From: Vallitaleaceae bacterium 9-2
Lineage (GTDB): Bacteria; Bacillota; Clostridia; Lachnospirales; Vallitaleaceae
Assembly: GCA_038396585.1 (NCBI GenBank)
Contig: CP121691.1
Span: forward strand, 2,232,001-2,296,000
Direction of reading: 5' to 3'
DNA length: 64,000 nucleotides
Part shown: positions 59,148-61,876 of the stretch, piece after piece
How positions within the stretch are numbered: position 1 is the stretch's first letter
How the letters are laid out: each line of letters begins with the position of its first letter
The notes under the pieces: model-generated
The model's input: the letters and a program-made list of their open reading frames with translations, nothing else
What the model was told of the DNA's origin: nothing
Database searches by the model: none
Position numbers and translations under genes: made by a program

Positions 59148-59178
59148 ATCAATAACCTCCTTATGTTTTGTTATGAAA

Positions 59179-59207
59179 ATTATACCATATCTCGTTTTTA
59201 GTGTAAA
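59179..59207 (-). promoter_or_regulatory. Promoter of gpx
   Basis: TTTACA (59202-59207), 17 bp, TATAAT (59179-59184) on the minus strand, about 30 bp before the ATG at 59147. Confidence 0.75.
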
Positions 59208-59224
59208 GCACAATTCAATTGTGC
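59208..59224. promoter_or_regulatory. OhrR-like 17-bp palindrome at gpx
   Basis: GCACAATTCAATTGTGC is perfectly symmetrical around one C and directly adjoins the gpx -35. Its core ACAATT-N-AATTGT is that of OhrR (MarR-family) organic-hydroperoxide operators. No ohrR gene is in the window. Confidence 0.55.
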
Positions 59225-59282
59225 ACAATCTTTAATAGTTCAAAATACTTAGGTTTTTACATTAAATTATCTGACTTTTCTC

Positions 59283-59310
59283 TTTACATTTGCGAGATGT
59301 GTGATATAAT
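59283..59310 (+). promoter_or_regulatory. Promoter of the ncRNA locus
   Basis: TTTACA (59283-59288), 16 bp, TATAAT (59305-59310) on the plus strand. No protein gene follows on that strand; the predicted start near 59317 enters the structured region. Confidence 0.65.
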
Positions 59311-59316
59311 TAGATT

Positions 59317-59667
59317 ATAGAAGAAAGAGCAACACTTCTTCTTACATGCCCTATTCACTTATTAACCTTGACAAATTATAAAAGTAGTTTGCATCAAGTA
59401 GTAGTATAGATGTTGGGTATAAAAAACCCTATAAGTAAAGTAGTAAAGTAAGACAACACCAAGTAAAGTGTTGAAGAAGTACAAGCAACATCGAAGTAAG
59501 TAATGCTTTTGATATTTTAAAAGCAAATTTTTAGGTATATGTATTAAGAGAATCTAGTATTTATGCTTTGGAAGGAATGAACAAGCAATTAGTATATGTA
59601 TAACAATAAGTTGAATATGGTATGGTAAAAAGCCGATGGTTAATTAATAACGTATCGGCTTTTTATT
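59317..59667 (+). ncRNA. Candidate structured non-coding RNA of unknown family
   Basis: About 350 nt with a promoter at one end and a terminator at the other and no convincing reading frame. Visible stems: AGAAGAA/TTCTTCT (59319-59325/59336-59342); GATGTTG/CAACATC (59409-59415/59486-59492, long-range); GGGT/ACCC (59415-59418/59426-59429); CAACAC/GTGTTG (59454-59459/59468-59473); TGCTTTT/AAAAGCA (59504-59510/59519-59525); TGCTT/AAGCA (59564-59568/59583-59587) with GGAAGGA in its loop. ACTTCTTC (59334-59341) could alternatively pair with GAAGAAGT (59473-59480). AAGTA is repeated many times between 59382 and 59502. It lacks features of tmRNA, RNase P and SRP RNA, and no 6S closing stem is apparent. 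Confidence 0.6.
59627..59664. terminator. Terminator of the ncRNA locus and of the DsrE gene
   Basis: AAAAAGCCGAT (59627-59637) and ATCGGCTTTTT (59654-59664) form an 11-bp perfect stem. T-runs follow on both strands, so it can stop the ncRNA (+) and the DsrE-like gene (-). Confidence 0.88.
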
Positions 59668-59683
59668 GTGCTTTTATATGGAT

Positions 59684-60022
59684 TTATAATGTAATAATTG
59701 CATAGCCTGCTTCAATATACTTTGCCATGGATGGATGTCCACTCATATCGCCAACAATTGGAATGCCTACCGTTTCATTATATTCAAGAACCCCCATCTT
59801 CGCTGAGCATCCTTGACATATTCCATCAATCAAGCCTTTTTCTTTCGCCTTCATATATAACGGATTCATTGCCTCTTCCATTTGCTGAACGAGCTTTACA
59901 GCCTCTCCTTCAATGACAATCAAGCCTCCCATGCCCTTTTCATGCAGCTCTAATCCATTGAGCAACACATGTACAAAGCACATCGGATCTCCTTTAAACG
60001 CAAACAATACAGTTTTATTCAT
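59684..60022 (-). CDS. DsrE-like small protein
   Basis: 112 residues. Its Rossmann-like start (MNKTVLFAFKGDPMCFVHVL), LVIEGEA-like strand and CQGCSAK (two cysteines near 69 and 72) fit the DsrE/F sulfur-relay superfamily. A sulfur-carrier or redox role is plausible, not proven. GGAGGAG before the ATG. It follows the rubrerythrin gene after a hairpin, and may belong to the same stress unit. Confidence 0.8.
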   Translation of the reverse strand: MNKTVLFAFKGDPMCFVHVLLNGLELHEKGMGGLIVIEGEAVKLVQQMEEAMNPLYMKAKEKGLIDGICQGCSAKMGVLEYNETVGIPIVGDMSGHPSMAKYIEAGYAIITL

Positions 60023-60083: not shown

Positions 60084-61139
60084 TTAATAGTTTTCAGAAC
60101 GCACTTCAAAATAACATTGTTCATAGCGACATACCGGACATACAACCGGAGCTTTTTTACCCATCACAAGGTGTCCACATACACGACATTCCCACATAGC
60201 TTCTTCGCCTTTTTCAAAGACTTGTTGCATCTCAACATTTTTAAGCAGCGCGCGGTAGCGTTCTTCGTGAGATTTTTCGATGGCACCCACACGTCTAAAC
60301 TTTGCAGCTAATGATTTGAATCCTTCTTCTTCTGCATCTTTTGCAAAACGTTCATACATGTCTGTCCACTCATAGTTTTCACCTTCTGCTGCAGCAAGTA
60401 GATTCTCAGCAGTCGTTCCAATATGACCTAATTCTTCAAACCAAAGCTTTGCGTGTTCTTGTTCATTGCGTGCAGTTTTTAAAAATATTTCACCTAATTG
60501 ATCATAACCTTCTTGTTTTGCAACACCGGCAAAATATGTGTACTTATTACGCGCTTGGCTTTCTCCTGAAAACGCTTCCATTAAATTTTTTTCTGTTTTT
60601 GTTCCTGCATACTTGTTTTGATCTGCCATTTTTTTGTCTCCTTCTTCTTTACTCATTTTTAATAAATCCAGCAATTGCTGAATAACTACCTTCATTGAAC
60701 TATCCGTTGTCTGTGCATTCAACAGCTCCAACAATAGCTTTCGTGTATTCTTGCTTTGAGGTGTCATATATCCCGCTTCACGCACAAGATCTTCTGCCAT
60801 GATACGATTCGAATACCGAAGGGCTTTTGCTAATTGTTTTATTATGGCATCTTGGGTATTTTCCTCAATATTCTTAGCGATACGTTCTTGTTGCGTCTTG
60901 CTTTCGGCTAATTGAAAAAGAGTATTTACAACTTCCTCTTTCTTATTTTGTTGCTCTGGATATACTTCTGGAACAAGTGAAATCGCATGCGACGGACACG
61001 CATCCACACATAAGCGACATCCATCCAGACACTTTTCAGGATCAATCTGCCCTGTCTCTGTATCTGTTGCTCCGGTCGGACATACATACAAGCATAGACA
61101 GTCTTTGGTACATAAACGTATATTACGAACGGCATGCAT
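60084..61139 (-). CDS. Ferredoxin-like domain fused to rubrerythrin
   Basis: 351 residues in one frame. Residues 1-60 carry two cysteine clusters ([12 protein letters not shown] and [13 protein letters not shown]) for 4Fe-4S centres. Residues 65-165 are helical without a known family. Residues 171-351 are a complete rubrerythrin: diiron ferritin-like domain ([33 protein letters not shown]) and a C-terminal rubredoxin (CRVCGH, CPVC). Met171 (60629) is preceded by GAAGGAG at proper spacing, so a separate rubrerythrin may also be made. An A7 run lies at that junction. It overlaps the upstream gene by 1 bp. Confidence 0.85.
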
Positions 61140-61819
61140 TATTTTTCCTCCCTTTGTATTTCCATTAGCTTCATACTTGGCACTTTACATACCGGACAAA
61201 TTTCCGGTGAATCATTGCTTAAAGAGATAAATCCACATATTTCACAAACATACACCTTGGTGTTCTCAAGTAAAGTCGCTTGCTGTTTTTCATAGCGTGA
61301 AAAAATTGCATTGATGATTTTGCTGACTTTTTCACTCCAAGTCAGGGCTCTTAAGCTACCTCTGTCCATCGCACGTCTTGCTTGATTATTGGCTTCACCA
61401 AAGCCATAATCTAAGTCTTTTTGAAGTAATATGCGCATAGCTTCAAAAGAATCCTCTGTTAAAACTTGACTACGCTGTGCATAATGATTAGCTAATTCTT
61501 GAAATAATTTGGATTCGTCAGGTAAATACTGCTTTTCGCATCCTTTGGCTAAGTTTGAAAAGATGACACTTAATTGTGCATTCGATCTTTCAGCCTTATC
61601 TTGTGACACTCCTAACGTTGTAGAGTCGCTTACAGGTTTTTGCTCATCCTTTTGTTCTGCTTGTTGCAAGACAAACTCATCCTTTGTCGCTCCACATAAA
61701 GGGCACATAAAGTCGTTCGGCACTTCCCTCCAGACGGTACCCGGCAAAATATTCTCTTGGGGCCGTCCTAGTGCTTCATCGTAAATATAACCACATACTG
61801 TACAGATATACTTTTGCAT
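61139..61819 (-). CDS. Rubredoxin-like protein with two iron-binding ends
   Basis: 226 residues: an N-terminal rubredoxin domain ([24 protein letters not shown]), a helical middle (about 75-175), and a C-terminal rubredoxin-like CEICGF...CPVC. It resembles reduced rubrerythrins and should transfer electrons in oxygen or peroxide defence. GGGAGG selects the ATG at 61819 rather than 61834. It is followed with a 1-bp overlap by the ferredoxin-rubrerythrin gene. Confidence 0.85.
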
Positions 61820-61876
61820 GATTACACCTCCCACATTCTATTCTAAATGGTTTTCAGAAAATTATCAAGCATTATA

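Follow-up and report, generated by a model that had tools for sequence, protein, structure and literature searches.

Comparative analysis of a gene-free gap in the genome of Vallitaleaceae bacterium 9-2 points to a free-standing noncoding RNA (ncRNA) of about 350 nt that would be made from its own sigma-A-type promoter, fold in two alternative states and act in trans through two elements, E1 and E2, a reading to which, taken as a whole, we assign a probability of roughly 0.5. On sequence comparison, the RNA is a clearly conserved family that is absent from current Rfam.

Results

A predicted RNA with its own promoter in a gene-free gap

The gap spans 536 bp without genes (positions 59148-59683 of the window, the 64,000-nucleotide stretch of DNA that was analysed; an earlier note on the same DNA gave 535 bp) and separates a glutathione-peroxidase-like gene (gpx) from a small gene whose product had no match in Pfam or NCBIfam (Table 1). 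The plus-strand promoter, described in the earlier note as consensus-like, is of the sigma-A type, matches the consensus at 11 of 12 positions and has a TG preceding its -10 box. A match of this grade, taken alone, is at chance level (4.3 expected per shuffled region); an equivalent promoter lies at the equal position in all aligned homologs, and nearly all copies have a promoter of the pattern CTTTACTTTT-N-TGnTATAAT. Transcription is expected to start near 59317, giving a predicted plus-strand RNA of about 350 nt (approximately 59317-59666).

Two further observations concern the DNA around the promoters. An inverted repeat, CACAATTCAATTGTG, at 59205-59219 sits just upstream of the opposite-strand gpx promoter and from its sequence is a possible operator; its letters are not all conserved in G001, a genome of the same genus. 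In G001, about 185 bp covering the gpx start and the RNA promoter are identical on two contigs (L002:1-350 and L007:1501-1685), one of the two copies ending abruptly at the -10 box, and this repeat may be a duplication, an insertion or an assembly artefact.

Table 1. Positions of the RNA, its parts and the flanking genes in the window.
Feature	Position	Strand	Description
gpx	start codon 59147	-	glutathione-peroxidase-like gene
Promoter	59283-59310	+	-35 TTTACA (59283-59288), 16-nt spacer, extended -10 TG(A)TATAAT, TATAAT at 59305-59310
P0	59319-59342	+	5'-terminal hairpin AGAAGAA/TTCTTCT; from folding, with compensatory changes at two pairs across homologs
Shared 5' strand	59345-59363	+	CATGCCCTATTCACTTATT; nearly invariant; predicted partner E1 (P1*) or the 3' strand (P1)
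P2	59367-59398	+	hairpin CTTGA-CAAATTAT / GTAGTTTG-CA-TCAAG
E1	59396-59417	+	AAGTAGTAGTATAGATGTTGGG; predicted to compete for the 5' strand by pairing with it locally
Variable middle	59433-59502	+	AAGTA copies; not conserved outside the genus
Local hairpin	59454-59473	+	CAACAC/GTGTTG; mean pair probability 0.99; also in G001
Local hairpin of the variable middle	59504-59525	+	TGCTTTTGA/TTAAAAGCA; mean pair probability 0.97
E2	59570-59581	+	GGAAGGAATGAA; purine-rich, Shine-Dalgarno-like; RGAARGGAWTG in 13/13 copies
P1 3' strand	59605-59624	+	AATAAGTTGAATATGGTATG; closes the RNA with the shared 5' strand
Intrinsic terminator	59625-59666	+	stem of 14 + 4 bp, stacked on P1
Small gene	59684-60022	-	stop at 59684

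Homologs occur in few genera of a single Clostridia order

A DNA search matched a same-genus genome at 78% over 545 nt and, through the first 90 nt or so of the RNA, matched another family of the order twice; a search with a pattern of the conserved 5' strand then enlarged the set of homologs. Two models were built, R1 from the sequence of the 5' domain only and R2 from the 3' domain with the terminator, which does not overlap the R1 region. Among 392 sampled genomes of the order, R1 found 13 loci at E below 1e-14, with noise at E above 3e-4, and R2 recovered those 13 loci, with no clear match elsewhere. Conservation in relatives, on which the earlier note had made its proposal depend, was thus found at 13 loci in 11 of the 392 genomes, belonging to five genera and four families, with two copies in each of two genomes. 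Occurrence is patchy: one family has the RNA in 4 of 24 genomes, all of one genus, another in 2 of 8 and a third in 2 of 2. When R1 was run on 391 genomes across the class there was no clear addition, all matches being at noise level; because both models were trained on the 13 loci themselves, very distant relatives could be missed in these searches. These comparisons place the conserved RNA in a handful of genera within a single Clostridia order.

Several candidate matches were discarded. The weak R1 matches, which range from E 3e-4 to 0.01 and come from both the order and the class, lack any companion feature, as do two pattern matches in viral contigs, which we attribute to chance, and phage and plasmid records gave no match to the RNA. 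A scan of genome contigs returned six matches, of which five are true and one, in an alphaproteobacterial record (L027), is false. Weak pattern matches at L009, L018, L022 and L023 were also rejected, and the match in G002 from the DNA search is unrelated sequence. A DsrE-like neighbour protein, tried in related genomes as an anchor for synteny, had no match.

The RNA is noncoding, free-standing and outside described families

At 13 of 13 loci (those within a genus not being independent) the gene on the 3' side points toward the RNA, indicating that the RNA is free-standing and not the leader of a gene; a cis-acting leader or riboswitch was therefore rejected, since the next gene does not lie on its strand. 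No reading frame on either strand is common across genera, and plus-strand frames in the window RNA reach at most 13 codons. A tiny frame at E2 (MNKQLVYV, MNK, MKQLSNV and others) was rejected, its length and sequence varying. Thus, the locus combines a promoter, a terminator and compensatory changes with the lack of a coding frame, as expected of a free-standing structured ncRNA.

The earlier note had called the RNA structured and unassigned, a description that its promoter, terminator, conservation and compensatory changes bear out, and had pointed to Rfam as a check. Searching Rfam 15 with the window at E up to 10 gave nothing within 59317-59667, six homologous loci searched at E up to 5 showed no match for the RNA, and the RNA reached the gathering cut-off of no Rfam 15 family, so that it belongs to no family described there. 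The same note had set aside a 6S identity, rightly: RF00013 has no match at the gap, and 6S is excluded because Rfam places the genuine 6S RNA elsewhere in the host genome (G000:C1:1576103-1576274, 77.9 bits). Like 6S RNA, the RNA is free-standing, a few hundred nucleotides long and has ends that pair together, but it is nearly twice as long and has a terminator, E1 and E2. It also resembles OLE, ROOL, GOLLD and raiA, the large orphan ncRNAs of Firmicutes held in Rfam, in being free-standing, structured and without a known effector, and differs from them in its narrower distribution and in having no Rfam match (E up to 10 for the window, 5 for homologs). A literature search did not find this RNA described.

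A closed fold with P0, P1 and a terminator

The RNA is predicted to fold at -85.8 kcal/mol (z = -5.2), a stability equalled by none of 100 shuffles and to which the terminator contributes (z about -2.8 when it is left out). P0 lies a few bases from the expected 5' end. The conserved long-range helix P1 comprises 18 bp with pair probabilities of 0.91-1.00; its 5' strand is near-invariant across the family (CATACCCTATTCACTTATTAC), and its 3' strand reads TGAATAGGGTATG. Two P1 pairs are doubly changed and six are invariant, with some G-U changes and some mismatches, including one fixed mismatch, C opposite U, in the window's genus. The terminator, noted previously as an 11-bp stem, is longer than that, recurs in the homologs and, taken alone, has compensatory changes at 7 of 11 pairs; a simple terminator scan did not list it. 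In the window it shows A-run/T-run symmetry; at several loci the terminator is symmetric, and this form may serve both the RNA and the convergent gene. The convergence at all 13 loci could itself reflect a common two-way terminator.

The earlier note had also looked to supported base pairs. Compensatory changes were counted on alignment blocks from 12 sequences, few and related, over the 27 pairs of P0, P1 and the terminator: 93.5% of cells are paired, compared to 36-43% when the structure is slid along the alignment, and nine pairs are doubly changed, compared to a shuffled mean of 3.0, a count that none of 500 shuffles reached. Comparison across the homologs therefore establishes, at the level of sequence, P0, P1 and the terminator along with conservation, noncoding nature and free-standing arrangement.

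Other parts of the RNA vary by lineage. At the position of P2, other genera have a short hairpin, TATCAA/TTGGTA, and the middle ranges from about 100 to 250 nt, its repeats differing by lineage: AAGTA in the genus of the window and GCGTTAGG-like units in genus g50. At L075, the first copy in genome G054, tandem TTTAGTATTTTATTA-like units lengthen this region. The many AAGTA copies that the earlier note had remarked on are indeed enriched in the window RNA (nine versus 2.4 expected, p about 5e-4), but they are no common motif: since other genera have only one to five copies, the repeat is genus-specific, and we rejected it as a functional unit. Two pairings proposed in that note also fail within the genus, namely a 7-bp long-range helix, most likely 59409-59415 with 59486-59492 (probability 0.68), which is absent in G001, and a switch between the arms ACTTCTTC and 59473-59480, which G001, having GAAGTAGT, does not preserve; both are confined to the window's genus or species.

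The 5' strand is predicted to have two exclusive partners

A pairing switch is nevertheless predicted, with arms other than those first suggested: CCCTATTCACTTATTA would have as its partner either E1 or the P1 3' strand. When the consensus 5' domain is folded alone, CCC-UUC-AC-AUUAC pairs with GUAGU-GU-GAA-GGG of E1 to form a local hairpin, P1*. E1, whose consensus across the family is GTAGTTnGTTnTGAAGTTGGG, in effect repeats the P1 3' strand imperfectly (UGAAGUUGGG compared to UGAAUAGGG). Over the 19 pairs of P1*, 93.4% of cells are paired and two pairs are doubly changed (4 of 500 shuffles), figures to be read knowing that the structure and the counts come from one alignment, which gives P1* an advantage over slid versions.

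Lengthening transcripts were folded by partition function, an equilibrium calculation and not a kinetic simulation. In truncated transcripts the 5' strand is held locally at 0.64-0.91 of positions, and in full-length transcripts P1 takes 0.51-0.91 and local pairing 0.00-0.37, a late shift that coincides with synthesis of the 3' end. Ten copies belong to genera other than the window's, and in these shuffling E1 reduced local pairing, the observed value being reached by only 0-7% of shuffles, whereas in the window and two relatives 55-73% of shuffles reach it and shuffling has no effect; in these three a longer A-U hairpin dominates. The switch is thus supported for the family and more weakly for the window. 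These folds predict two exclusive partners for the 5' strand and hence a co-transcriptional two-state fold.

The strongest rival to this fold is that the RNA has a single working structure, with P1 closed and the local hairpin incidental, and serves as a protein-binding scaffold or an antisense sRNA, the likeness of E1 to the P1 3' strand having another reason, such as a protein- or RNA-binding site. The dominance of P1 in all full-length folds, the thin covariation of P1*, with its two doubly changed pairs, and the indifference of the window's genus to E1 shuffling all favour a single fold. Against it, CTTATTAC is nearly invariant though most copies leave it unpaired in P1, an invariance that the GTAGT of E1 explains as its partner; G175a carries a matched C-G to U-A change, with UUU for UUC in the 5' strand and AAA for GAA in E1, the P1 3' strand retaining GAA (a U-G pair); and in ten copies E1 shuffles seldom reach the observed pairing. 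We regard a single fold as possible, if on the unlikely side.

E2 and candidate modes of action

The two-state reading proposes that, early in transcription, P1* would hold the 5' strand CCCUAUUCACUUAUUA locally. Once the 3' strand UGAAUAGGGUAUG was made, the 5' strand would move to P1, which would bring both RNA ends together beside the terminator and release E1, and the finished RNA would then use its conserved elements, the purine-rich E2 and E1, to act in trans through base pairing or protein binding. We infer that the RNA is transcribed, that it acts in trans and that E1 and E2 have these roles. A stronger version, that the RNA is a new ncRNA class working as a kinetic switch, its effector E1 masked in the nascent RNA and set free only once P1 has zipped the complete, terminated molecule closed, is put forward tentatively and is itself unlikely; if it were true, only finished molecules would be active and no peptide would be encoded. 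In the full-length fold, the unpaired probability of E1 does not clearly exceed the average.

Alternatively, E2 itself could be the effector, as a Shine-Dalgarno-like decoy for the 16S rRNA 3' end or as a loop that binds CsrA, an idea that began with the loop-exposed GGAAGGA of the earlier note. The element is indeed retained in every copy, but predictions do not consistently place it in an open loop, with unpaired probabilities of 0.13-0.79. Among its variants (GAAAGGA, GGAAGGA and GAAGGGA), the only differences lie opposite U of the anti-Shine-Dalgarno tail, so that seven pairs with the tail are always possible, and the 16S tail GGATCACCTCCTTTCT occurs five times in the host. The AUG of E2 abuts the Shine-Dalgarno-like stretch and the frames that it opens have 2-13 codons, which argues that E2 is no ordinary start site. 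As for CsrA, csrA is present in 10 of the 11 carrier genomes, the eleventh being only 73% complete, an occurrence that is not specific and permits binding but does not demonstrate it. The RNA shares a conserved GGA-containing element with CsrB/RsmZ-type RNAs, but has just two to four GGA per copy, compared to the many in CsrB-type sponges, and lacks their regular GGA hairpin loops. On balance, E2 as the effector seems to us distinctly unlikely.

Improbable too is an early terminator, in which the local hairpin and a T-run would act as an attenuator and split the output into RNAs of about 100 and 350 nt. In the ten copies from other genera, a T-rich run, usually of 7-8 T, does follow directly after the GG(G) of E1. 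Such a terminator would be weak, with only three G-C pairs between the T-run and the internal loop; the window's genus lacks the run and carries TATAAAAAACCC in its place, and the same strand has no downstream gene to regulate. An mRNA for a small toxin or peptide of the hok-like type I toxin-antitoxin kind would explain a metastable 5' hairpin followed by 5'-3' fold-back, since hok mRNAs form a local hairpin while nascent and fold back end to end afterwards, but this likeness in the predicted order of folding is one of architecture only, and the lack of the conserved small, usually hydrophobic, open frame that defines the type makes such an mRNA highly improbable.

Genes near the RNA

The neighbours in the window's genus are gpx, the small gene and rubrerythrin, and those elsewhere include YedF-SelD-MnmH, superoxide dismutase, transporters, chemotaxis genes and others. 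Redox and selenium genes seem to recur near the RNA without being constant, and as neighbours vary by lineage, the hint of a role in stress in the earlier note stays weak. A SelO-family (YdiU) gene is convergent with the RNA at two loci in two different families (L069 and L070), which suggests that the locus was inherited from a common ancestor. As the neighbours indicate no single pathway, the RNA is taken as trans-acting.

Two neighbouring genes have features of their own. The rubrerythrin gene of the window (60084-61139, minus strand) encodes a fusion protein whose cysteine-rich, ferredoxin-like N-terminal part precedes rubrerythrin (residues 176-351), a fusion also present in G001 (L078:2403-3458). 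The gene at 61139-61834 (minus strand) encodes a protein that begins with a rubredoxin domain and has a second end resembling rubredoxin, and the overlap between the start codon of one gene and the stop region of the next suggests an operon with the rubrerythrin gene.

Discussion

The most likely account of this locus, we conclude, is an RNA that acts in trans and whose co-transcriptional fold has two states. The anatomy is specific enough for a covariance model and for testing, and one 5' strand with two exclusive predicted partners makes a co-transcriptional switch concretely and cheaply testable in an RNA that lacks any reading frame. More broadly, the family indicates that Clostridia lineages outside the usual models still harbour undescribed ncRNA families.
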